Assembly: GCA_900316245.1 (NCBI GenBank)
Contig: ONCE01000005.1
Location: 26,955-90,954 of the forward strand
Origin: an uncultured Bacteroidales bacterium
GTDB lineage: Bacteria > Bacteroidota > Bacteroidia > Bacteroidales > UBA932
DNA: 64,000 nucleotides
Reading direction: 5' to 3'
The notes under the pieces were generated by a model. That model was not told where the DNA came from, did not search any database, and saw only the letters and a list, made by a program, of their open reading frames with translations. Both the position numbers and the translations under genes were made by a program. Below, one piece after another: positions 6,077 to 59,163 of this stretch. Positions within the stretch are counted from its first letter, which is position 1. Every line of letters starts with the position of its first letter.

Positions 6077-6321
6077 TGGACGAAATTCAACTTCATATCC
6101 TGAGTCCCGAGGGGACGCTGGTCAAAAAGGCCGTGTCGCTGGTGACGCTGCCGGGCGTGGTGAGTCCTTTCACCGTGCTCAAGGACCACGCCGCCCTGGT
6201 CACCGCCCTGGTGGAAGGAGACATCCGTTATGTGGCAAATGACAAGGAGGAACTTCTCCACATCCAGGAAGGTTTTGTGGAAGTGAAAGATAACCAGGTA
6301 AAAGTCTGCGTGGAGGTATGA
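6076..6321 (+). CDS. atpC: F1Fo ATP synthase subunit epsilon
   Basis: An 81-residue epsilon subunit containing only the N-terminal beta-sandwich (ILSPEGTLVKKAVSLVTLPG, ending VKVCVEV). The C-terminal helical hairpin that acts as an inhibitory arm in longer homologues is absent, as is usual for short Bacteroidetes epsilon proteins. It forms part of the central stalk and couples gamma rotation to the c-ring. The gene overlaps atpD by one base and atpB by four (ATGA), so translation is probably coupled on both sides. Confidence 0.93.
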
Positions 6322-7358
6322 TCCTCATTTTCCTCATATCGTTATTGTTGTTACAAGGAGATACACTCGGCCTTGCAGGCCTCGGTATGACAAACGAAGC
6401 CGCTGTCATACCGAGCGAAGCGAGCGTATCTCATGAAGAGGAACTTGATATAGCAGAGATTATCTTCGAGCACATTGGTGACGAGTATGAGTGGCACATC
6501 ACAGAGTGGAAGGGCAAGGCCATTGCCATTCCGCTACCTTGTATTGTGATAGAGGACGGTGTGCATATCTTTACGGCGCATCACGCGGTGGATTATGGAT
6601 ATACATTCAATGAGAACGGGAAACTGGTGAATGCCCAGACTGGCAAGCGGCCCATAGACTTGTCCATTACCAAGAACGTCCTGGCCCTCATGTTTAGCAC
6701 TTTGCTCCTTCTGGTCATAGTGCTGTGGACGGCCCGCTGGTACAAGAAACATGATGCCTTGCAGCAGGCCCCCACTGGTCTTGCGGCCGCTATGGAGCCC
6801 CTCATCATGATGGTGCATGACATGGCACGAGAGAATATCGGCCCGGATTACCGGAAGTTCTCTCCCTACCTTTGCATGGCCTTCCTGTGGATCCTGTTCA
6901 ACAACTTCCTGGGTATCCTGCCCTTCTTCCCGGGAGGCGCCAACCTCACGGGTAACATTGCCATTACGTTGGTACTGGCCCTGTTCACCTTCTTTACGGT
7001 GAACCTGAACGGTACCAAACATTATTATAAAGAGATTTTTGCCCCGGATGTTCCGGGCTTCCTTAAACCCATAATGCCGGTGATCGAGGTCTTCAGTACC
7101 ATTATGAAACCGGTCTCCCTCACCATCCGTCTATTCGCCAATATGCTGGCGGGCCATATTATGATCCTGTCTATGGTGTGCATCATCTTCATCGTGGCCA
7201 AGTACGGCCCGCTCCTGACAGGCAGCATGACGCTCATATCCGTTCTCTTCGGCGTGTTCCTGGATGCGCTGGAGTGCCTGGTTGCCTTTATCCAGGCCTA
7301 TGTATTTACCATGCTCAGCTCCATTTATATCGGACTGGCACGGGCTCATGAAGAATAA
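6318..7358 (+). CDS. atpB: F1Fo ATP synthase subunit a
   Basis: The membrane stator subunit forming the ion half-channels, 346 residues. An N-terminal hydrophobic segment (ILIFLISLLLLQ), probably a signal or membrane segment, precedes a soluble extension of about 100 residues typical of Bacteroidetes AtpB. Then come the transmembrane helices. The essential stator arginine is in SLTIRLFANMLAGH, and the last helix contains ECLVAFIQAYVFTMLSSIY. Residues 14-38 are encoded by a palindromic insertion (6357-6432) directly after the first hydrophobic segment, giving GDTLGLAGLGMTNEAAVIP and onward, which is not expected from the family. No atpI-like gene is seen between atpC and atpB. Confidence 0.95.
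   Translation: MILIFLISLLLLQGDTLGLAGLGMTNEAAVIPSEASVSHEEELDIAEIIFEHIGDEYEWHITEWKGKAIAIPLPCIVIEDGVHIFTAHHAVDYGYTFNENGKLVNAQTGKRPIDLSITKNVLALMFSTLLLLVIVLWTARWYKKHDALQQAPTGLAAAMEPLIMMVHDMARENIGPDYRKFSPYLCMAFLWILFNNFLGILPFFPGGANLTGNIAITLVLALFTFFTVNLNGTKHYYKEIFAPDVPGFLKPIMPVIEVFSTIMKPVSLTIRLFANMLAGHIMILSMVCIIFIVAKYGPLLTGSMTLISVLFGVFLDALECLVAFIQAYVFTMLSSIYIGLARAHEE
6357..6432 (+). repeat. In-frame paired palindromic element (CTCGGTATGACA subtype)
   Basis: Perfect 12 bp arms CTCGGTATGACA (6381-6392) and TGTCATACCGAG (6404-6415) flank an 11-base loop. Outer ends GAGATAC (6358-6364) and GTATCTC (6426-6432) also pair. The right half contains the compact GAGCGAAGCGAG hairpin. The element is read in the atpB frame without a stop. 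A shortened copy with the same right half lies in atpG at 10907-10958. Confidence 0.85.
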
Positions 7359-8704: not shown

Positions 8705-10287
8705 TGGCAACAAGTCTGAAACCATCGGAAGTGAGCGATATCCTGCTAGGGCAGCTCCAAGACATGAAAAACGACCTCCAGTTCGAGGAGATCGGCAAAG
8801 CCTTGCAGGTGAGTGACGGCGTCGTGCGCATCTACGGCCTGGACCATGCCGAAGCCGGCGAACTGCTGGACTGCGGCAACGGCGTGATGGCCGTGGTGAT
8901 GAACCTGGAGACCGACAACGTGGGCGCCGTGCTGATGGGCCCCACGGATCAAGTGAAGGAGGGTATGGTGGTGCGCCGTACGGGCCGCATCGCTTCCATT
9001 GGCGTGTGCGACAAACTGCTGGGCCGCGTAGTGGACCCGCTGGGTGCCCCGCTGGACGGCCTGGGCCCGGTAGACGGCGACAAGATTGACATGCCGCTGG
9101 AGCGCAAGGCTCCGGGCGTCATCTACCGCCAGCCGGTGAGCGAGCCCCTTCAGACGGGCCTCAAGGCCATTGACGCGATGATTCCCATCGGCCGCGGTCA
9201 GCGTGAGCTCATCATCGGAGACCGTCAGACGGGTAAGACCGCCATTGCCATTGATACCATCCTTAACCAGCGCCAGGCCTACGAGGCCGGAGACCCGGTG
9301 TACTGCATCTATGTGGCCATCGGCCAGAAGGGCTCTACCGTGGCTTCCATTGTGAAGACCCTGCGGGAGCGTGGCGCCATGGACTATACCGTGGTGGTGG
9401 CTGCTACAGCATCCGACCCCGCCGCGCTTCAGTACTATGCTCCTTTTGCCGGAGCCGCCATCGGCGAGTACTTCCGCGACACGGGCCGCCACGCCCTGGT
9501 GGTGTACGACGACCTCTCCAAGCAGGCTGTGGCCTACCGTGAGGTATCCCTCATCCTCAAGCGCCCTTCGGGCCGCGAGGCATACCCCGGCGATATCTTC
9601 TACCTGCACAGCCGTCTGCTGGAGCGTGCGGCCCGCATCATCGACCAGCAGGAAGTGGCCCAGCAGATGAACGACCTCCCGGCCGCCCTCAAAGACAAGG
9701 TCAAGGGCGGCGGCTCCCTCACCGCCCTGCCCATCATCGAGACGCAGGCCGGTGACGTATCGGCCTATATCCCCACCAACGTGATTTCCATCACGGACGG
9801 CCAGATTTACCTGGAACAGGGCCTCTTCAACCAGGGTGTCCGTCCCGCCATCAATGTGGGTATTTCCGTGTCCCGTGTGGGTGGCAGCGCCCAGGTCAAG
9901 TCCATGAAGAAAGTGGCCGGTACCCTCAAGATCGACCAGGCCCAGTGGACGGAGCTGGAGGCTTTCTCCAAGTTCTCGTCAGACGTGGACAAGGTTACCG
10001 AACTGGCCCTGGATAAAGGCCGAAAGAACAACCAGCTGCTCATCCAGCCCCAGTACAGCCCTATGCCCGTGGGAGAACAGGTGGCTATCCTCTTCTGCGG
10101 AACGCGCGGCCTTATGCGGGATATCGCCATCGATGCCGTGCACGCCTTCCAGGATGCTTTCCTGGGCCGCCTCCGCGCCACGCACCAGGCCGATGTCCTG
10201 GACCCGCTGGGAGCCGGCAAGCTCACTCCTGAGATTGAAAAGATTCTGACAGATACCGCAGCCTCCGTTATCCTTACCCTCAAGTAA
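8704..10287 (+). CDS. atpA: F1Fo ATP synthase subunit alpha
   Basis: The non-catalytic nucleotide-binding subunit of F1, 527 residues, full length. The N-terminal beta barrel begins near [20 protein letters not shown]. Walker A is GDRQTGKT (Lys178), and the family signature is [17 protein letters not shown]. The C-terminal helical domain ends [14 protein letters not shown]. The stop codon overlaps the atpG start by one base. Nothing in the sequence departs from the family, in contrast to atpB and atpG, which carry palindromic insertions. Confidence 0.98.
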
Positions 10288-11210
10288 TGCCCACGCTGAA
10301 GGAAATAAAGGGCCGGATAGGGTCGGTCAAGAGTACGCTGAAGATTACTTCGGCGATGAAGCTCGTGTCCAGTGCCAAACTGCGCAAGGCGCAGGTGGCC
10401 ATCGAGGCTATGAGACCGTACGAGGAGGCCCTGCAGGGCATCCTGGCTACCTTGGAGATTCCCGGTCAGGCCGGGAACGACGTATGGGGCGCCGGGAATG
10501 CCGTGAGGGACGGGTGGGACTCTGAGGAGTCCGTCATGCCCGGCACCGATCGGGCATCTTCCGACCGGGCATCCAGGCCCACGGCCCTTGTGGCCATAGC
10601 CTCCAATTCCTCCCTTTGTGGCGGCTTCAACGCCAACATCATTGCCAAGGTGCGCAGTGAGCGCAAGCCCGGGGACGTGATTTATTCGTTGGGCCGAAAG
10701 ATGGCCGACGCCATGCGCCGTGACGGCTATCCCACCCCCGAGGACCTGAACGACCTGGTGGAGCATCCGGCCTACGGCCCCGCCGCCGCCCTGGTGGAAA
10801 AGTTGGCCCACGAGGTAGAGGAAGGCAAATATAGCCGCGTGCTCCTGGTCTATACCCATTTCGTCTCTACGGCCCGCCAGGTTCCCGTGGCAGAAGTGCT
10901 ATTAGGAGGAGATACGCCCACAGACGTTGTCATACCGAGCGAAGCGAGTGTATCTCCTGATGATGTCCTCATCGAGCCCGGCAAGAAGGAACTGCTGGCG
11001 AGCCTCCGTCCCAAGACCCTCAAGCTCAAGCTGTATGCAGCCCTGCTGGACAGCGTCGCCGCCGAGCACGCCGCCCGTACCGTGGCTATGCAGACGGCCA
11101 CCGACAACGCCGAGAACCTCCTCTCCGAACTCACCCTCCAGTACAACAAGGGCCGTCAGCAGAAGATTACTTCAGAAATTCTGGACCTCGCAGGTGGTCA
11201 GACCGAATAG
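10287..11210 (+). CDS. atpG: F1Fo ATP synthase subunit gamma with two palindromic insertions
   Basis: The rotor shaft of F1, 307 residues, last gene of the operon. The N-terminal helix (IKGRIGSVKSTLKITSAMKL) and C-terminal helix (ATDNAENLLSELTLQYNKGR) of the coiled-coil shaft are intact, as is the LCGGFN segment of the Rossmann-like domain. Two segments are extra. Residues about 57-96 (EIPGQAGND through SDRAS) come from a palindromic block at 10454-10574. Residues about 208-224 (GDTPTDVVIPSEASVS) come from 10907-10958. Both lie where gamma subunits have variable surface loops, so the protein should remain functional. Without them the length would be about 250-255 residues, which is short for the family in the loop regions but plausible. 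Confidence 0.95.
   Translation: MPTLKEIKGRIGSVKSTLKITSAMKLVSSAKLRKAQVAIEAMRPYEEALQGILATLEIPGQAGNDVWGAGNAVRDGWDSEESVMPGTDRASSDRASRPTALVAIASNSSLCGGFNANIIAKVRSERKPGDVIYSLGRKMADAMRRDGYPTPEDLNDLVEHPAYGPAAALVEKLAHEVEEGKYSRVLLVYTHFVSTARQVPVAEVLLGGDTPTDVVIPSEASVSPDDVLIEPGKKELLASLRPKTLKLKLYAALLDSVAAEHAARTVAMQTATDNAENLLSELTLQYNKGRQQKITSEILDLAGGQTE
10454..10574 (+). repeat. In-frame palindromic block, three hairpins (CCGGTCAGGCCGG subtype)
   Basis: Left unit 10454-10481 (GGAGATTCCCGG, loop TCAGG, CCGGGAACGAC). A central hairpin has GGACTC at 10517-10522 and GAGTCC at 10527-10532. The right unit is 10533-10561 (GTCATGCCCGG ... CGGGCATCTTC), followed by a repeated half unit GACCGGGCATCC at 10563-10574. 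All are read in the atpG frame, with no stop codon. Confidence 0.85.
10907..10958 (+). repeat. In-frame palindromic element, shortened copy
   Basis: Perfect 9 bp ends AGGAGATAC (10907-10915) and GTATCTCCT (10950-10958). The right portion repeats the atpB element nearly base for base (TGTCATACCGAGCGAAGCGA), while the left half is reduced to its outer end. Read in the atpG frame. Confidence 0.8.
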
Positions 11211-14329: not shown

Positions 14330-15681
14330 TGTCCCTCTTTTCCTATTTCCGCATCAGTAAACCTTCGGAAACACCCGTTCCGGAAGGGGAGGTGGACGCC
14401 TCCTACAGACGCTTCCGTGAGCGTACCTTCTGGGGCGTGACCGTGGCCTATACCCTGTACTACGTGTGCCGGGGTACCCTGGGCGTGGTCAAGCAGCCGC
14501 TCATCGACAGTGGCGTGCTTACGGCCGGGGAACTGGGCCTCATTGGGTCGGCCTTCTACTTTGTGTATGCGGTAGGAAAGTTTACCAACGGTTTTATTGC
14601 AGACTATTGCAACATCCGTCGTTTTATGGCGGCGGGTATTGGCATATCGGCCCTTATTAACCTTATTCTGGGTATCCTGGGGCTGCTGGGAACGCCGCTG
14701 GGCAAAGGATCCCTCTTTGTCTTTGTGACTTTCCTTCTCCTTTGGGGCGTGAACGGCTGGGTGCAGTCCATGGGTTCTCCTCCCGGCACCATCAGCCTGT
14801 CCCGCTGGTTCCCGCTCAATCAGCGCGGTACCCGGTACAGCATCTTCAGTTCTACCCCGCAGCTGGGCAAGTCCGTTTCCATGGTGATGACGGGCTTCAT
14901 CGTGGCGGCCGCAGGCTGGCAGTGGGGCTTCCTGGCGGCGGCTGTGGCGGGGGTTATCGGCCTGGTCATTTCCCTGGTCTTTGTCTCGGATACGCCCGAG
15001 AGCGAGGGCCTTCCCTCCGTGCAGGAACTCTCCGGAGAGCCGGTGCGGGAGATGGATAAAAAGCCCACGCAGGAGCTCCAGAGATGGGTTTTCCGGCATC
15101 CGGGCATTTGGGTTATCGCCATTTCTACGGCTTTCCTTTATATTACCCAGCACGCGGTGAGCGACTGGGGCGTCCTCTTCCTTCAGAAGCAGAAAGATTT
15201 CTCCCTCAGCAGCGCTGCGCAGGTTATCGGTTATGCCGAAGCCTTCGGTATCACGGGCAATCTCCTGGCGGGCTGGCTTTCGGACCGGGTGTTCGGCGGC
15301 AACCGCGTACGGCCCGTTGTCCTGGCCGGCATTCTGGCCGTGGCCTCGCTGTTCGGCTTCCTGTTCCTGGAAGGCGGATTCGCTTTGAATATGGTGTTTG
15401 TGGCCGTGTTCAGTTTCTCCTTCAGCATTGTGTTCTGCATTGTGGCGGGCCTGATGGCGCTGGATTTCGTGCCCCGCAAGGCCACGGGTGCGGCCCTGGG
15501 CATCGTGGGTATCTCCAGTTATGCCGCAGCCGGTCTGCAGAGCTCGGTGAGCGGTTTCCTCATCGGCGGCTTCGTGGAGCAGGGCGTCTACAACTTTACC
15601 CCCGTATCCATCTTCTGGATCGTGGCCTGCCTGCTGGCTTTCGTGCTGCCGGTTATCGGCTGGAAATACCTGAGAAAATAG
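14329..15681 (+). CDS. MFS transporter, organophosphate:phosphate antiporter type
   Basis: A 450-residue protein with about 12 transmembrane helices, related to GlpT/UhpT (OPA family): TLYYVCRGTLGVVKQPLI in helix 1 and SAFYFVYAVGKFTNGFIAD in helix 2, carrying the conserved KF..G..D pattern. It would exchange an organic phosphate for inorganic phosphate across the inner membrane. The start at 14329 is coupled to the HAD phosphatase stop; an earlier in-frame start lies within that gene and is rejected. The 3' end overlaps the convergent MATE gene by 29 bases. Confidence 0.88.
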   Translation: MSLFSYFRISKPSETPVPEGEVDASYRRFRERTFWGVTVAYTLYYVCRGTLGVVKQPLIDSGVLTAGELGLIGSAFYFVYAVGKFTNGFIADYCNIRRFMAAGIGISALINLILGILGLLGTPLGKGSLFVFVTFLLLWGVNGWVQSMGSPPGTISLSRWFPLNQRGTRYSIFSSTPQLGKSVSMVMTGFIVAAAGWQWGFLAAAVAGVIGLVISLVFVSDTPESEGLPSVQELSGEPVREMDKKPTQELQRWVFRHPGIWVIAISTAFLYITQHAVSDWGVLFLQKQKDFSLSSAAQVIGYAEAFGITGNLLAGWLSDRVFGGNRVRPVVLAGILAVASLFGFLFLEGGFALNMVFVAVFSFSFSIVFCIVAGLMALDFVPRKATGAALGIVGISSYAAAGLQSSVSGFLIGGFVEQGVYNFTPVSIFWIVACLLAFVLPVIGWKYLRK

Positions 15682-17014
15682 CTTTCTTGTAACGTACCGT
15701 CAAGTACGCCGCCCTTATCGCGAGATGCATAAAGTAGGCGGCCATCAGCAGGTGGATGGCGGCCTCGGGTGTTGAGGCGTAGCGCTCTCCCGCAAACCAT
15801 ACCGCAAAGAAACCCACGGCGCAGAGCAGCGTGCTGTTGCGGAGGTCTTTGGAGGCCGTGGCGCCTATGAAGATGCCGTCCCATACAAAGGCCGGGCAGC
15901 CGATGAGTGGCATCAGCAGCAGCCAGGGCAGGAATTGCCGGCCGGCTTCCACCACCACGGTGTCTTCTGTCATCAGGCGAAGGATGGGTGTTCCGCCGGC
16001 GCCGTAAGCCAACACAAACAGGCCCGCCATAGCCATCCCCCAGAGGAAGGTCTGCCGCACGGTGCAGCGGACGCCTTCTTCAGACCCTTCGCCGATGAAT
16101 TTGCCCGTGAGGGCTTCTCCGGCGTAGGCAAAACCGTCCGTGAAGTAACTGAAGAACATCAGGAGTTTCATCAGGATGGCACTCACCGCCAGCATCACAT
16201 CTCCATATCGGGCCGATATAATCGTAAACCCAATGTACACCGCAATCATCCCGATGGACCGTAGGAACAGGTCCCGGTTCAGGGCGAACAGCCTGTTTTC
16301 AGATGGCCGGTCGGAGCCGGCCATGACGGCCTTTTCGTCATTCCCGGCTTGACCGGGAATCTTTACCCCGTATCGGCGGCGGGCGACGATGACGCAGTAC
16401 GTGAAGCCGCTCCACTGGGCCAGGAAAGTGCCCAGGGCAATGCCGGGGAAGCCCATCAGCATACCCAGCACGATGGAGGCGCCAATGTTGATGCCGTTTA
16501 CCAGGAGGTCGGCGGTCATAGGCCTTACGGTGTCCTGCATGCCTATGAACCAGCCTTTGAAAGCGAAGAGCGAAAGCGTGGCGGGAGCGGCCCAGATGCG
16601 GATGTAGAAGTACTGGGTAGCCAGTTTCTGAACTACCGGGCTGCAGTCAATGAAGAGGAAGGCCAGTTGCACCACCACCCATTGGAGGGCGATGAGGCCG
16701 ATACCGGAGATAAGCGCAATGCGCAGCGCCCGGTTCAAAATGTCCGCCGTTTCGTCCGGGCCGGCCTGACCGGCCGCCTTCCGGCCGTAGGCCTGTGCCG
16801 TAAGGCCGCCCGTTCCCACCCGCAGGAATCCGAAGTTCCAGTACAGCAGGTCGAAGAGCATGGCCCCTATGGTGATTCCGCCTATGAGCGCAGCGGCCGA
16901 AGTCCCCTGCAGGTGTCCGGCTACGGCCATATCCACCATACCCACAAGGGGGACGGTGATATTGGCAAAAATGCTGGGAATGGCCAGCCGCAATATCTCG
17001 CGGTTCAGATTCAT
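15653..17014 (-). CDS. MATE family efflux transporter with palindromic insertion
   Basis: A 453-residue multidrug/toxin extrusion protein with about 12 helices (DinF/NorM-like): IPSIFANITVPLVGMVDMAV in helix 1, and FSYFTDGFAYAGEALTGKFI in the second half. The start at 17014 (MNLNREILRL) overlaps the rsgA stop by four bases. Residues about 217-238, in the central cytoplasmic loop between the two six-helix bundles, read KIPGQAGNDEKAVMAGSDRP and are encoded by a paired palindromic element at 16301-16363. A loop position should tolerate this. The 3' end overlaps the MFS gene on the other strand. The substrate is unknown. Confidence 0.88.
   Translation of the reverse strand: MNLNREILRLAIPSIFANITVPLVGMVDMAVAGHLQGTSAAALIGGITIGAMLFDLLYWNFGFLRVGTGGLTAQAYGRKAAGQAGPDETADILNRALRIALISGIGLIALQWVVVQLAFLFIDCSPVVQKLATQYFYIRIWAAPATLSLFAFKGWFIGMQDTVRPMTADLLVNGINIGASIVLGMLMGFPGIALGTFLAQWSGFTYCVIVARRRYGVKIPGQAGNDEKAVMAGSDRPSENRLFALNRDLFLRSIGMIAVYIGFTIISARYGDVMLAVSAILMKLLMFFSYFTDGFAYAGEALTGKFIGEGSEEGVRCTVRQTFLWGMAMAGLFVLAYGAGGTPILRLMTEDTVVVEAGRQFLPWLLLMPLIGCPAFVWDGIFIGATASKDLRNSTLLCAVGFFAVWFAGERYASTPEAAIHLLMAAYFMHLAIRAAYLTVRYKKAIFSGISSR
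16301..16363 (-). repeat. In-frame paired palindromic element in the MATE gene
   Basis: In gene direction: AGATTCCCGG-TCAAG-CCGGGAATGAC, a 9-base spacer, then GTCATGGCCGG-CTCCGA-CCGGCCATCT. The spacing and orientation relative to the gene match the rnfG and trmB copies even though this gene is on the other strand. The frame stays open. Confidence 0.85.
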
Positions 17015-17943
17015 CGGAATTTCTTGTCTTCCTCCAGCATACCCAGGTAGGAGTTGTAGCGCTCCGGGGAGATGAGGCCGGCATCTACCGCCGCCTTGAC
17101 GGCGCAGCCGGGCTCGTGGGTATGGGTGCAGGGGATGAAGCGGCAATCGGCCGATGCCTTGAGCATCTCCGGGAAGTACTTGGCAATCTCTTCCTTTTCC
17201 ACATCCACCAGGCCGAAGCCGCGGATGCCGGGGGAGTCAATGAGGTACCCGCCGCCGCTGAGGGGGTACATCTCGTAGAGGGACGTGGTGTGCTTGCCCT
17301 GCAGATGGGCGGCCGAAATCACGCCAATCTTGGGGTCCAGGCTGGGGTCCAGCGCCTTGATGAGGGAACTCTTGCCCACACCGGACTCTCCGGAGAACAG
17401 GTTTACGCGGTCCCGGCAGGCTTCGCGGATTTCCGCTATGCCTTCTCCGGTTTTGACGGAGGTTTCAATGACCTTGTAGCCGGCACCCTCGTAGATGGCT
17501 TTGAAATGGGCTATTTCCTCCGCGGCGGGTTCCCGGTACAGGTCTGTCTTGGACAGGACGATGGTAGCGGGAATGCCGTAAAGTTCGCAGGTGACCAGGA
17601 TGCGGTCCAGGAAGGGGAGTTTTACTTCGGGGAAGTACAGGGATACCACCAGATAGGCCCGGTCCACGTTGGCGGCAATGATGTGCGCCTGGCGGGAAAG
17701 GTTGGTGCTGCGGCGGATTACATAGTTCCGGCGGGGGAGAATCTCGGTGATGACGGCGCTGTCTCCGTCATCGGCCCATTCATATTTGACTTTATCTCCT
17801 ACAGCTATGGGGTTGGTGATTTCGCTGGCCTTGAGGCGGACCTTGCCGCGAAGCACGGACGGGAACACGTCCCACGCCGGTAACTCGGACAGCAGATAAT
17901 GGCTGCCCGCATTCTTTACTACCGTTGCTTCACCGCATTTCAT
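17011..17943 (-). CDS. rsgA: Ribosome small subunit-dependent GTPase A
   Basis: A 310-residue circularly permuted GTPase assisting late 30S ribosome maturation. Order of parts: an N-terminal OB fold (residues about 1-75), the G4 motif in VLSKTDLY, the G1 P-loop GESGVGKSSL, G3 in DSPGIRGFG, and a C-terminal zinc segment with CRFIPCTHTHEPGC. Length and order are standard. The start at 17943 lies just after a -7 box. The gene is the first of a two-gene minus-strand unit with the MATE transporter (ATGA overlap). Confidence 0.95.
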   Translation of the reverse strand: MKCGEATVVKNAGSHYLLSELPAWDVFPSVLRGKVRLKASEITNPIAVGDKVKYEWADDGDSAVITEILPRRNYVIRRSTNLSRQAHIIAANVDRAYLVVSLYFPEVKLPFLDRILVTCELYGIPATIVLSKTDLYREPAAEEIAHFKAIYEGAGYKVIETSVKTGEGIAEIREACRDRVNLFSGESGVGKSSLIKALDPSLDPKIGVISAAHLQGKHTTSLYEMYPLSGGGYLIDSPGIRGFGLVDVEKEEIAKYFPEMLKASADCRFIPCTHTHEPGCAVKAAVDAGLISPERYNSYLGMLEEDKKFR

Positions 17944-22004: not shown

Positions 22005-22027
22005 CACCTGATAAGAGTAGTGGGGGC

Positions 22028-22207
22028 TAAAGCACAAAAACGGGCATAGAAGGCGGAAAGTGTGCTTTAGGCAGGGTCAAGAGGTGGGGGTAAAGCACAA
22101 AAACGGGCATAGAAGGCGGAAAGTGTGCTTTAGGCAGGGTTAAGAGGTGGGGGTAAAGCACAAAAAGTGGCGTAGAAGGCCAAAAGTGTGCTTTAGGCAG
22201 GGTTAAG
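22028..22207. repeat. 63 bp tandem repeat, three units, each a hairpin
   Basis: Units begin at 22028, 22091 and 22154. Each contains the perfect 9 bp arms TAAAGCACA and TGTGCTTTA with a 24-base loop (arms at 22028/22061, 22091/22124, 22154/22187), followed by GGCAGGGT and AAGAGGTGGGGG. Units 1 and 2 differ by one base. Unit 3 has seven loop changes but intact arms. Not a CRISPR: there are no unique spacers. Confidence 0.85.
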
Positions 22208-22211
22208 GTGC

Positions 22212-22306: not shown

Positions 22307-22335
22307 GGAGATGCCCGGTCGGTGCCGGGCATGAC
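22307..22335 (-). repeat. Single GTCAT-type palindrome, intergenic
   Basis: On the minus strand it reads GTCATGCCCGG-CACCGA-CCGGGCATCTCC, matching the right unit of the paired elements in atpG and rnfG. No left partner is adjacent. Confidence 0.8.
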
Positions 22336-44271: not shown

Positions 44272-44300
44272 GTCATGCCCGGCCCTGACCGGGCATCTCC
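44272..44300 (+). repeat. Single GTCAT-type palindrome, intergenic
   Basis: GTCATGCCCGG-CCCTGA-CCGGGCATCTCC, the same unit as at 22307-22335 and as the right units of the in-frame pairs. It lies between the RND gene and the PII-like gene, 14 bases before the latter's ATG, where it could affect the downstream translation start. Confidence 0.8.
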
Positions 44301-49316: not shown

Positions 49317-49747
49317 GAAAAGTAGCGTTAGCCCTTCTGCTGGTGCTTCTGGCTTCCTGCCGGGAGCCCCTTTCCACCGAGCAGTTCGTGCGCGGAGCGG
49401 GTCCGTACGTGTTCACCGTGGATATGAGCGACACCACCGCGGCCTACGATTTTGACCTCTATACCCGCCTGGACGGCACTCACACGGAGATGCTCACCCT
49501 CCAGCCCGGCGCCCTGATCCGGGCCGAATGGCGCTCGCCCTCCGATTCCCTCCTGGTAGAAAAAGTTTACCTTCCGCTCCGGGGAGAGCGCACCACATAT
49601 TACTCCAAGGATATCTACGAGCCCTACAGGGCCGATGTCCGTCCGGCAGAACCCGGAATATGGACCCTGACCATCCGGGCCGAAGACCGGGCGCAGCTGC
49701 TGCCGCTCCGCGGGATGGGCCTGGTGATCAAGAAACACAGAGACTGA
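49313..49747 (+). CDS. gldH: GldH-like lipoprotein
   Basis: A 144-residue lipoprotein (GTG start; MRKVALALLLVLLASC, Cys16). The mature part is a beta-sandwich-like chain (YVFTVDMSDTTAAYDFDLY; RADVRPAEPGIWTLTIRAED). The assignment to GldH rests on size, lipoprotein signal, the closing 'W-x-L-x-I-x-x-x-D' pattern and position directly after ricT, which is the standard site for gldH in Bacteroidetes. GldH was named for gliding motility, but homologues occur in non-gliding Bacteroidales, where its role is unclear. The stop overlaps the trmB ATG. Confidence 0.65.
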   Translation: MRKVALALLLVLLASCREPLSTEQFVRGAGPYVFTVDMSDTTAAYDFDLYTRLDGTHTEMLTLQPGALIRAEWRSPSDSLLVEKVYLPLRGERTTYYSKDIYEPYRADVRPAEPGIWTLTIRAEDRAQLLPLRGMGLVIKKHRD

Positions 49748-50601
49748 TGGGACACGGAAAACTCAAGAAATTTGCCGAGAACGAGACCTTCCGCTGCCTG
49801 CTGCAGCCGGATGCATCGGCCGTGCTGGCCAAGGAGCCCGGCTCCAAGGAGCTCAAGCTCAACGACCACCCCATCAAGGGCCATTGGGGGGAGCAGATGT
49901 TTGGCAACCATAACCCCATCGTTCTGGAACTGGGCTGCGGAAAAGGGGACTATACCATAGCCCTGGCCCTCCGGAACCCGGATATCAACTACATTGGCGT
50001 GGACATCAAGGGCGCCCGCCTGTGGAAAGGCGCCAAGTTTGCCACGGAGAACGCCCTGCCCAATGTGGCGTTCCTCAGAACGCGGATTGAGTTCATCGAC
50101 GCGTTCTTCGGCCCGGAAGAAGTTTCCGAGATTTGGCTCACCTTCTCCGACCCCCAGCTCCGCGGTTCCGAGAATGCCCGCCTGTCTTCTCCGCTCTTCC
50201 TGGAGCGTTACCGCAAGTTCCTCAAACCTGGCGGAATCATTCATCTGAAAACCGATTCCCGCTACCTCTACGAGTACACCCAGGCCGTGTGCCAGGTAAA
50301 CCACCTGCCTGTCCATTTCCAGAGCACGGATGTGTACAAAGAGATGGCCGGTCAAGCCGGCCATGACGGGGCGTCATGCCCGACTCCGATCGAGCATCTG
50401 GACTTGGAAGTCGTAACCCGGGTGCAGACTTTTTACGAGAAGATGTTCCTGGAGATGGGCCTGCCCATTACCTATATGGCCTTTGAAATCGGGCACGACG
50501 GCCCGTACGCGTTCCCCGGGGAGGCGTTCGACCACGAAAAGTGGCTCGAGGCCGAAGGTCCCCGCCGCTCCTTCTCCCACCAACCCTCCAAGAGGGATTA
50601 G
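49747..50601 (+). CDS. trmB: tRNA (guanine-N7)-methyltransferase with palindromic insertion
   Basis: A 284-residue enzyme that forms m7G46 in tRNA. AdoMet binding is in VLELGCGKGDYTIALALRNP, with the family motif IWLTFSDPQLRG and the C-terminal HLKTDSRYLYEYTQAV. Residues about 199-218 (EMAGQAGHDGASCPTPIEHL) derive from a paired palindromic element at 50341-50399; family members normally have a short loop here before the TFYE segment that resumes as VQTFYEKMFLEMGLPI. The start at 49747 is coupled to the gldH stop. The protein is also extended by about 40 residues at the C-terminus. Confidence 0.92.
   Translation: MGHGKLKKFAENETFRCLLQPDASAVLAKEPGSKELKLNDHPIKGHWGEQMFGNHNPIVLELGCGKGDYTIALALRNPDINYIGVDIKGARLWKGAKFATENALPNVAFLRTRIEFIDAFFGPEEVSEIWLTFSDPQLRGSENARLSSPLFLERYRKFLKPGGIIHLKTDSRYLYEYTQAVCQVNHLPVHFQSTDVYKEMAGQAGHDGASCPTPIEHLDLEVVTRVQTFYEKMFLEMGLPITYMAFEIGHDGPYAFPGEAFDHEKWLEAEGPRRSFSHQPSKRD
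50341..50399 (+). repeat. In-frame paired palindromic element in trmB
   Basis: Left unit GAGATGGCCGG-TCAAG-CCGGCCATGAC (50341-50367), spacer GGGGC, right unit GTCATGCCCGA-CTCCGA-TCGAGCATCT (50373-50399). The left unit is read in the same frame as in the other genes (GQAGHD). The right unit, because of the 5-base spacer, is read in another frame (PTPIEHL) but still has no stop. Confidence 0.85.
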
Positions 50602-58551: not shown

Positions 58552-59163
58552 ATGGCTGCAAAATCCAATTTAACCAATATGGTACTGGTGCTGGGCCTTA
58601 CCTGCCTGTTCTGCTCCGGCATTCTGGGCGGTGCCTATGTGCTCACCAAGGAGCCCATTGACAAGGCCGCGGCCGAAAAGACCAACAAGGCCATTGCCCA
58701 GGTTCTGCCCCATTTCACGGAGGTGAAGTACAATGAGGCAGACCACTACTACACCGCCACCGACGGAGATATCCTGGTGGGTTATGCCATCGAGTCCACC
58801 ACCGTGGGCTTCGGCGGCCCCCTGACCCTCATTGTGGGCGTAACCCCCGACGGCGTGGTCTACAACACTTCCGTGCTCTCGCACGCCGAGACCCCCGGTC
58901 TGGGCGCCAAGTGCACCACGGACGCCAAGTTTATGAATCAGTGGAAGGGCTTCAACCCCTCCGTCAAGAAACTCTCCGTCAAGAAGGACGGCGGTGACGT
59001 AGACGCCATCACGGCTTCCACCATCACCTCCCGCGCCTACACCCTGGCGGTGGAGAACGCCCTGACAACGTTTAAGAAGATTGCCGGTCAAGCCGGCAAT
59101 GACGAAGCCGTCATTCCCGACTCCGATCGGGCATCTAATGAAGGAGGACAAGACAATGAGTAA
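58552..59163 (+). CDS. rnfG: Rnf complex subunit G with palindromic C-terminal tail
   Basis: A 203-residue periplasmic subunit anchored by one N-terminal helix (LVLGLTCLFCSGILGGAYVL). The FMN-binding domain carries TASTITS at about residues 154-160 in DAITASTITSRAYTLA, where Thr157 is the expected covalent FMN site; the usual Gly is replaced by Ala and the usual Ala by Ser. After VENALTTFKK the family normally ends, but here a further 27 residues (IAGQAGNDEAVIPDSDRAS onward) are encoded by a paired palindromic element at 59078-59136. The stop lies beyond the start of rnfE (8-base overlap). Confidence 0.93.
   Translation: MAAKSNLTNMVLVLGLTCLFCSGILGGAYVLTKEPIDKAAAEKTNKAIAQVLPHFTEVKYNEADHYYTATDGDILVGYAIESTTVGFGGPLTLIVGVTPDGVVYNTSVLSHAETPGLGAKCTTDAKFMNQWKGFNPSVKKLSVKKDGGDVDAITASTITSRAYTLAVENALTTFKKIAGQAGNDEAVIPDSDRASNEGGQDNE
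59078..59136 (+). repeat. In-frame paired palindromic element at the 3' end of rnfG
   Basis: Left unit AGATTGCCGG-TCAAG-CCGGCAATGAC (59078-59103), spacer GAAGCC, right unit GTCATTCCCGA-CTCCGA-TCGGGCATCT (59110-59136). Both units are read in the same frames as in atpG and the MATE gene, giving GQAGND and PDSDRAS. Confidence 0.88.

Follow-up and report, generated by a model that had tools for sequence, protein, structure and literature searches.

The in-frame palindromes found in a 64,000-nucleotide stretch of Bacteroidales DNA, here called the window, are CGTC-tagged REP palindromes, which form an already-described superfamily. We consider it probable that they are mobile, nonautonomous elements that are kept in genes by their loop position, frame, and orientation. 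The units share the features of one family, are depleted in genes, and follow a rule of orientation and phase where they do occur in genes. Orthologous sites are filled in some relatives and empty in others, and the insertions in AtpG (ATP synthase gamma) lie in loops. The kind of repeat is known, and its behavior in this genome is new and stronger; it appears to reshape core proteins across the genus. An extra loop of AtpG, DnaG, MutL, MnmA, or ClpX in these genomes may thus stem from repeat DNA and need not be an adapted domain.

The window has a G+C content of 57% and is part of a 2.24-Mb genome in 35 contigs. The 80 named relatives of its AtpA were mostly Bacteroidales metagenome-assembled genomes, many of them ruminant-derived, and 3 of the 80 were named Candidatus Cryptobacteroides, from which we infer that the genus is Cryptobacteroides. 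All genomes compared were metagenome assemblies. One contig (locus L349, OMSM01000477.1) was labeled Lachnospiraceae, yet its AtpA was 83% identical to that of the window, and it is probably mis-binned. In relative G019, the atp region was present twice with equal scores, on contigs C19 and C34, which probably reflects a duplicated assembly.

Palindromic units in the window and in the genome

An earlier note on this DNA had described palindrome pairs in atpG, a MATE transporter gene, trmB, and rnfG. All four pairs were found at the places described, arranged head-to-head. The note missed a second site in atpG (10929-10955), a pair in atpB (6359-6431), and two nongenic units (22309-22335 and 44272-44298). 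The features are as follows.

6318..7358, + strand: atpB ORF (ATP synthase a), Pfam PF00119, E 5e-58, domain from residue 125
6359..6391, - strand: atpB N-terminal pair, left unit, second type with a longer loop; not coding by the codon model
6405..6431, + strand: atpB N-terminal pair, right unit; the ORF frame gives VIPSEASVS, and the codon model labels the unit intergenic
10287..11210, + strand: atpG, host of two insertions, by Pfam PF00231 (E 9e-77) and alignment with relatives
10455..10482, - strand: atpG site 1, left CGTC unit of the 26-nt type, loop TCAGG on the + strand, reads EIPGQAGND
10483..10531: atpG site 1, spacer of the dimer, unlike that of the nearest relative (L303)
10532..10559, + strand: atpG site 1, right CGTC unit of the 27-nt type, reads VMPGTDRAS
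10560..10574, + strand: atpG site 1, right-half sequence of the unit, partly repeated (TCCGACCGGGCATCC)
10907-10915 and 10950-10958: atpG site 2, outer inverted repeat, AGGAGATAC and GTATCTCCT
10929..10955, + strand: atpG site 2, second-type unit (GAGCGAAGCGAG), reads VIPSEASVS
15653..17146, - strand: MATE-family transporter gene, ORF with Pfam PF01554
16301..16327, - strand: MATE gene, 27-nt unit pointing downstream on the gene strand, reads VMAGSDRPS
16336..16362, + strand: MATE gene, 26-nt unit including the tag C, reads KIPGQAGND
22309..22335, - strand: lone 27-nt unit, called intergenic
44272..44298, + strand: lone 27-nt unit, called intergenic
49528..50601, + strand: trmB ORF, methyltransferase PF02390
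50342..50367, - strand: trmB, 26-nt unit, reads EMAGQAGHD
50373..50399, + strand: trmB, 27-nt unit, frame shifted, reads SCPTPIEHL
58552..59163, + strand: rnfG, FMN-binding domain PF04205
59078..59103, - strand: rnfG, 26-nt unit near the C-terminus, reads KIAGQAGND
59110..59136, + strand: rnfG, 27-nt unit near the C-terminus, reads VIPDSDRAS

The note's statement that three of the four pairs share one frame held for atpG, the MATE gene, and rnfG, and the right unit of trmB was the shifted one. A frame-shift call for the rnfG units was rejected as an artifact of their C-terminal position. The true start of trmB probably lies further inside the ORF. As had been estimated, site 1 of atpG adds about 40 residues to the protein through 120 bp, and the spacer makes up about two-fifths of it. 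The atpB pair is in frame directly after the signal-like start of the ORF, and it is likely to be translated; this start is putative, as the PF00119 domain begins only at residue 125. Two ATP synthase genes of one cluster, atpG and atpB, thus bear palindrome inserts. A 63-bp unit repeated three times in tandem (22023-22211) lies near one of the lone CGTC units.

Each unit is a hairpin of the form GTC-AT(n)CC(C/G)(G/A)-loop-(reverse)-AT-CT, in most cases with a C in front. With a strict pattern, the 2.24-Mb genome gave 53 copies versus 1 for a reversed-pattern control, and a covariance model gave 134 matches at an E value of 1 or less, the weakest of which may be chance. The model was built from 36 units, and 150 of 1,340 first-look candidates were scored with it. 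Grouping within 110 bp turned the 134 units into 106 elements. Units of 32 bits or more, hereafter strong units, numbered 88. The full CGTC tag was present in 84 of them, with GTC itself part of the search model. The 42 strong units of the 26-nt (TCAAG) type have a 5-nt loop, and the 46 of the 27-nt (CTCCGA) type have a 6-nt loop. AT at the stem base was invariant in the 36 aligned units, which had been picked by a pattern that demanded AT. In the 37 same-genus genomes, our own included, the strict pattern occurred in 0 to 74 copies per genome and was absent from 9. The window gave no match to Rfam at gathering thresholds.

The passages of Di Nocera et al. 2013 (PMC3733652) that concern these repeats describe CGTC repeats (CGTC-1 to CGTC-4) in five phyla, including Bacteroidetes. 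They describe head-to-head heterodimers, report that no transposase was found, and identify RPE-4 and RPE-6 of Rickettsia conorii as CGTC-4 and CGTC-1, respectively. Intragenic copies are also covered there; over half are dimers or groups that code for 20 to 30 residues, and many lie in repair and replication genes. Our units resemble the repeats of that account in the CGTC tag, the AT stem base, the 8-bp stem, the head-to-head heterodimers, the occurrence within genes for repair, replication, and translation, and the lack of a dedicated transposase. Stems of 8 to 9 bp starting with AT are described there, and all 8 stem pairs were present in 81 of our 88 strong units. Other details agree only in part with the same passages. 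Loops of 4 to 5 nt are described there; the 5-nt loop of our 26-nt type fits this, and the 6-nt loop of our 27-nt type does not. The short unpaired tail is mostly CCA-like there; here it begins with CT, followed by C in 53 of the 88. Among all 134 matches, neighboring units were arranged head-to-head in 16 cases, head-to-tail in 11, and tail-to-tail in 1; the head-to-head arrangement dominates in that account and the head-to-tail arrangement is negligible, and the tail-to-tail arrangement is rare in both. The unit type here is also strongly tied to gene strand and frame, and the same protein loops are reused genus-wide.

The earlier note knew of no description for this group. In that it overlooked the CGTC repeats, intragenic ones included, that these passages report for Bacteroidetes; a literature search found nothing on in-frame palindromes in this genus or on a strand-and-frame rule, although the rule may be implicit in the supplement of PMC3733652 that lists REP-encoded residues. 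Its comparison with Rickettsia was apt. The Rickettsia elements, summarized in part of a review (PMC10969869), are likewise in-frame palindromes in unrelated genes, and RPE-4 and RPE-6 belong to the same CGTC superfamily as described in PMC3733652; the phylum is different, and the habitat here is the gut. Parts of PMC6649704 describe inverted repeats in protein-coding genes of Nematomorpha as well, but these are mitochondrial.

Orientation and frame of units inside genes

Gene calls came from an open-frame test together with a model of codon usage, for which 234 ORFs served as the training set, and were independent of any annotation. By this model, 54 of the 134 units fall in genes, with the frame open through the unit. 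For the strong units the figure was 39 of 88, compared with 88% of the window being coding, so genes are avoided, although they are far from unit-free. The hosts identified by Pfam included AtpG, the MATE transporter, the TrmB-type methyltransferase, RnfG, DnaG, MetG, MutL, ClpX, a DnaX-type clamp loader subunit, CysS, MnmA, an RfbB-like dehydratase, an amidohydrolase (which we take to be HutI), FtsK, a bifunctional penicillin-binding protein, a FakA-like protein, and beta-galactosidase.

On the gene strand, we write "<" for a unit with its CGTC end downstream and ">" for one with its CGTC end upstream, and f0 is the frame that reads xIPGQAGND ("<") or VMPGSDRAS (">"). The note had stated that the left unit is always of the TCAAG type and the right unit of the CTCCGA type. 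Genome-wide, 37 of the 39 strong coding units were "<" units of 26 nt or ">" units of 27 nt as that rule demands, and 2 broke it. Frame f0 was used by 34 of the 39, and other frames were used by 5. Specifically, the "<" units of 26 nt, in which f0 and f1 are open and f2 has a stop, were in f0 19 times and in f1 once; the ">" units of 27 nt, with all three frames open, were in f0 14 times and in f1 3 times. Stop codons alone therefore do not impose the rule, since f0 is preferred where other frames are also open. The "<" unit of 27 nt has a stop in f0, so the orientation of a dimer is fixed once f0 is favored, and coding head-to-head pairs of the two types had the same direction in 8 of 8 cases. 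Among all 54 coding units, f0 was used by 43, and among the weak ones, it was used by 9 of 15. In consensus units, f0 had the top codon score among the open frames, by a small margin, for the "<" 26-nt, ">" 27-nt, and ">" 26-nt units.

Of 98 units that we examined in six relatives (G003, G005, G006, G019, G024, and G028), 26 counted as coding, including 0 of 6 in G006. This tally used 92 of 114 rows, after 14 repeats from overlapping loci and 8 units below 32 bits had been dropped, plus the six G006 units. Frame f0 was used by 21 of the 26, and the rest were four "<" units of 27 nt (f1 or f2) and one ">" unit of 26 nt (f2). The rule of type and strand was kept by 18 and broken by 8, the four "<" units of 27 nt among them, so other readings are tolerated. 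The P values obtained (4e-5, 5e-5, and 3e-9) are too small, because many insertions may be inherited from a common ancestor and the counts are not independent.

The simplest reading of the rule is that it reflects selection for a tolerable peptide. The note's proposal of selection for one readable orientation was thus borne out as far as a favored orientation and frame are concerned (37 of 39 and 34 of 39); the selection itself, which would be purifying selection on the peptide rather than phase-specific insertion, is suggested by these counts. The host proteins presumably work normally.

Filled and empty sites and the spread of the units

Orthologues of the hosts were sought in 12 relatives and counted only where the locus held both flanks. 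At the 12 MnmA loci, there were three short loops without a unit (LPDG, TPEG, and LPDG), three full dimers, three apparent remnants (IPGG, IPGQ, and IPGQAGNDGR), and three other loops of 8, 15, and 32 residues. The RfbB unit was absent from 4 of 4 loci. The 10 TrmB loci comprised four short loops, one CGTC pair (G226), and five long inserts of different sequence, and HutI carried CGTC units at 3 of 3 loci. The MATE gene, with 7 loci of which two had the same sequence and came from one genome, showed one CGTC dimer, three other inserts, and three short versions. MutL (7 loci) had two CGTC-like inserts, one other repeat, and four short versions; DnaG (8 loci) had two clear CGTC inserts, with the remainder variable; and the single ClpX locus was without a unit. 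Because some sites have empty, filled, and shortened versions in relatives, the units are insertions, although the filled relatives may share one old insertion and are not independent events. These alignments, of a kind that the note had proposed, showed gain or loss in orthologues, and the empty orthologues of MnmA, RfbB, and TrmB match the Rickettsia-like in-frame insertion that it had suggested. No fresh insertion was caught among the genomes compared. Target-site duplications were unreadable, as the DNA identity of the best of 300 genomes was about 75% across the atp region.

These observations suggest small, nonautonomous elements that often combine a 26-nt hairpin with a 27-nt one head-to-head and that would be spread by some enzyme in a transposition-like manner. 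Units could land anywhere, and most landings in genes would be lost. The survivors would be those in flexible surface loops whose total length preserves the host frame, mostly in the orientation and phase that give short, hydrophilic, turn-rich peptides such as xIPGQAGND and VMPGSDRAS. Hundreds of species of the genus with empty, filled, or decayed loops make the survival of selfish repeats within essential genes, and the mobility of CGTC REPs, testable. No target-site signature was found, nor was a mobilizing enzyme in a transposase survey that covered Y1 genes.

The note had linked the units to REP/RAYT systems, in which case a Y1 (HUH) transposase of the genome would move them, as in GTAG REP systems. 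Passages of PMC6006769, which classifies Y1 proteins, describe short hairpins in head-to-head pairs there too, and Y1 genes occur in the same genomes here: the window's genome has three Y1_Tnp matches, and 9 of 12 relatives with at least 10 repeats have 2 to 6. Ten repeat-rich relatives had 32 matches, of which we examined 20; with the three of our own genome, this made 23 Y1 loci, some clipped by contig ends. Only one was flanked on both sides within 200 nt (L114 2723-4085 on contig C18 of G028, with CGTC units 167 nt before and 148 nt after the Y1 ORF). Two others had a unit on one side within 300 nt, L121 with a unit 73 nt beyond one end and the C22 gene of our own genome with one unit at 286 nt and a weak one at 712 nt, but the nearer C22 unit sits within a neighboring gene. 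The remaining 20 of 23 loci had no CGTC unit within 700 nt. Y1 and repeat numbers did not correlate across 37 genomes (Spearman 0.23, p 0.18, uncorrected for completeness); two genomes had at least 10 repeats but no Y1 gene, and five had no repeats but at least three Y1 genes. The tag is CGTC rather than the GTAG or GTRG foot given in those passages, and the relevant passages of PMC3733652 report that a link between CGTC repeats and a transposase was not found. Mobilization by a Y1 transposase is thus improbable.

It is somewhat less improbable, but still unlikely, that insertion itself was specific for phase or strand, through a target motif or transcription, with selection playing a minor role. 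The rule is very regular, and the residue before the left f0 unit is almost always E, K, or Q; however, this residue is explained by the element's own AG plus any base except T, and relatives hold opposite orientations and other phases. In the G226 trmB gene, moreover, the order of the units is reversed with the strand and frame of each kept, which argues for unit-by-unit selection. Least credible of all is the view that these are ordinary variable linkers whose palindromes arose without mobility as by-products of local tandem or template-switch mutation. AtpG loop lengths do vary also in distant relatives, many of which have no evident palindrome in these loops, and tandem expansion has occurred within the elements of mutL and dnaG. 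Against it, many unrelated loci within one genome carry near-identical units of 26 to 27 nt, and orthologous sites can be either empty or filled. Replication slippage, which the note had also raised, would account for local expansion and not for the origin of the elements. Insertion of mobile units followed by selection in genes remains the reading that we prefer.

In the mutL (L059) and dnaG (L034) genes of the window's genome, the part of the element that is tandemly expanded within the protein (GHDEEWAGHDEEWAG and AGPDGRSAGPDQ) has a slippage-like appearance. A dense unit cluster on contig C26 of G019 was considered as a REPtron and rejected, as the enclosed gene encodes a clostripain-family peptidase (PF03415). 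For a unit cluster on contig C53 of G028, no transposase was seen among the few ORFs inspected by eye. On contig C19 of the window's genome (L073 8705-9628), a Y1-like gene is flanked on both sides by near-alike repeats containing GTTACGCGTTTTGGG, which are unrelated to the CGTC units.

AtpG loops and other hairpins in relatives

AtpG was read in 27 relatives and in 79 of the 80 named loci, two sets that partly overlap; identical loops occurred in a few of the 79. The AtpG flanks aligned well across relatives, and the two loops did not. The nearest relative (L303, AtpA 97% identical) kept the dimer of site 1 with a different spacer and had a 27-nt unit at site 2 in place of the SEASVSP type of the window. 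Inverted repeats with arms of at least 8 were present in 29 of 79 site 1 loops and 29 of 78 site 2 loops, whereas the controls gave 19 of 471 (windows of atpA) and 36 of 471 (loops with shuffled codons). They were thus about 5 to 9 times more common than in the controls. Arms of at least 12 occurred in 3 of 79 site 1 loops and 9 of 78 site 2 loops, compared with 0 of 471 in both controls. In an AlphaFold2 model of AtpG (23 sequences, mean pLDDT of 78), the only stretches of at least 3 residues with a pLDDT below 50 were 59-92 and 209-217, both within the two sites, which are thus predicted to be loops of low confidence. The type of element varied by species among CGTC dimers, second-type units, long hairpins with two cores, and tandem hairpins, and the AtpG loops of relatives are filled by several unrelated palindrome families.

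One of the other hairpins, class C, is absent from the window's genome and may be a new kind of element. Its core (GGAGCATTTGCCCGTACAGGGTCGCGAAGCGACGCGGA) occurred, with up to 2 mismatches, in 7 of 12 same-genus genomes in 3 to 15 copies each, 56 in total, of which 52 were examined (loci L153 to L202 and, for example, L129 2532-2615). The constant 38-bp core was 92 to 100% alike within one genome, whereas each copy had arms that form its own inverted repeat, typically of 20 to 24 bp (about 21) and nearly perfect at most loci; in G171, the arms were irregular and, in a few copies, barely recognizable. The mean pairwise identity of the arms within a genome was 0.38 to 0.57, indicating that the arms also share a loose consensus. 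With a gene call looser than that used for the CGTC units, 45 of the 52 copies were placed in genes and 7 were unclear. One phase was common to 44 of the 45 genic copies, in both orientations (24 and 20), giving SASLRDPVRANAPE or SGAFARTGSRSDAEE. The exact core was absent from viral contigs and from 393 genomes of the order, a set that included three from this genus.

In MetG, assigned by similarity to the protein of the window's genome, loci L157 and L163, from two species, had nearly the same arms around a flipped class C core. At AtpG site 2, the class C arms of G150 and G061 differed by a change that was present in both arms. L316 differed from L311 and L319 at that site by lacking the left arm and the core, with 54 nt missing and the frame kept. 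This could mean that the arms are inverted target copies, but a deletion is just as likely, given short direct repeats at both ends. We tentatively suggest, as one possible and somewhat doubtful reading, that the flexible loops of core proteins in this genus have been colonized repeatedly by several unrelated translated palindromes, with class C as a kind not described in the literature searched, whose arms might form or be renewed locus by locus, through inverted target copying or continuous arm-to-arm correction. If true, class C would be a new way to build protein inserts. The AtpG loops of L131, L135, L136, and L149 contained another in-frame hairpin, with a core like AAAAANATAGCCGATGCTACGG (KKADA or KRADF) and variable arms.
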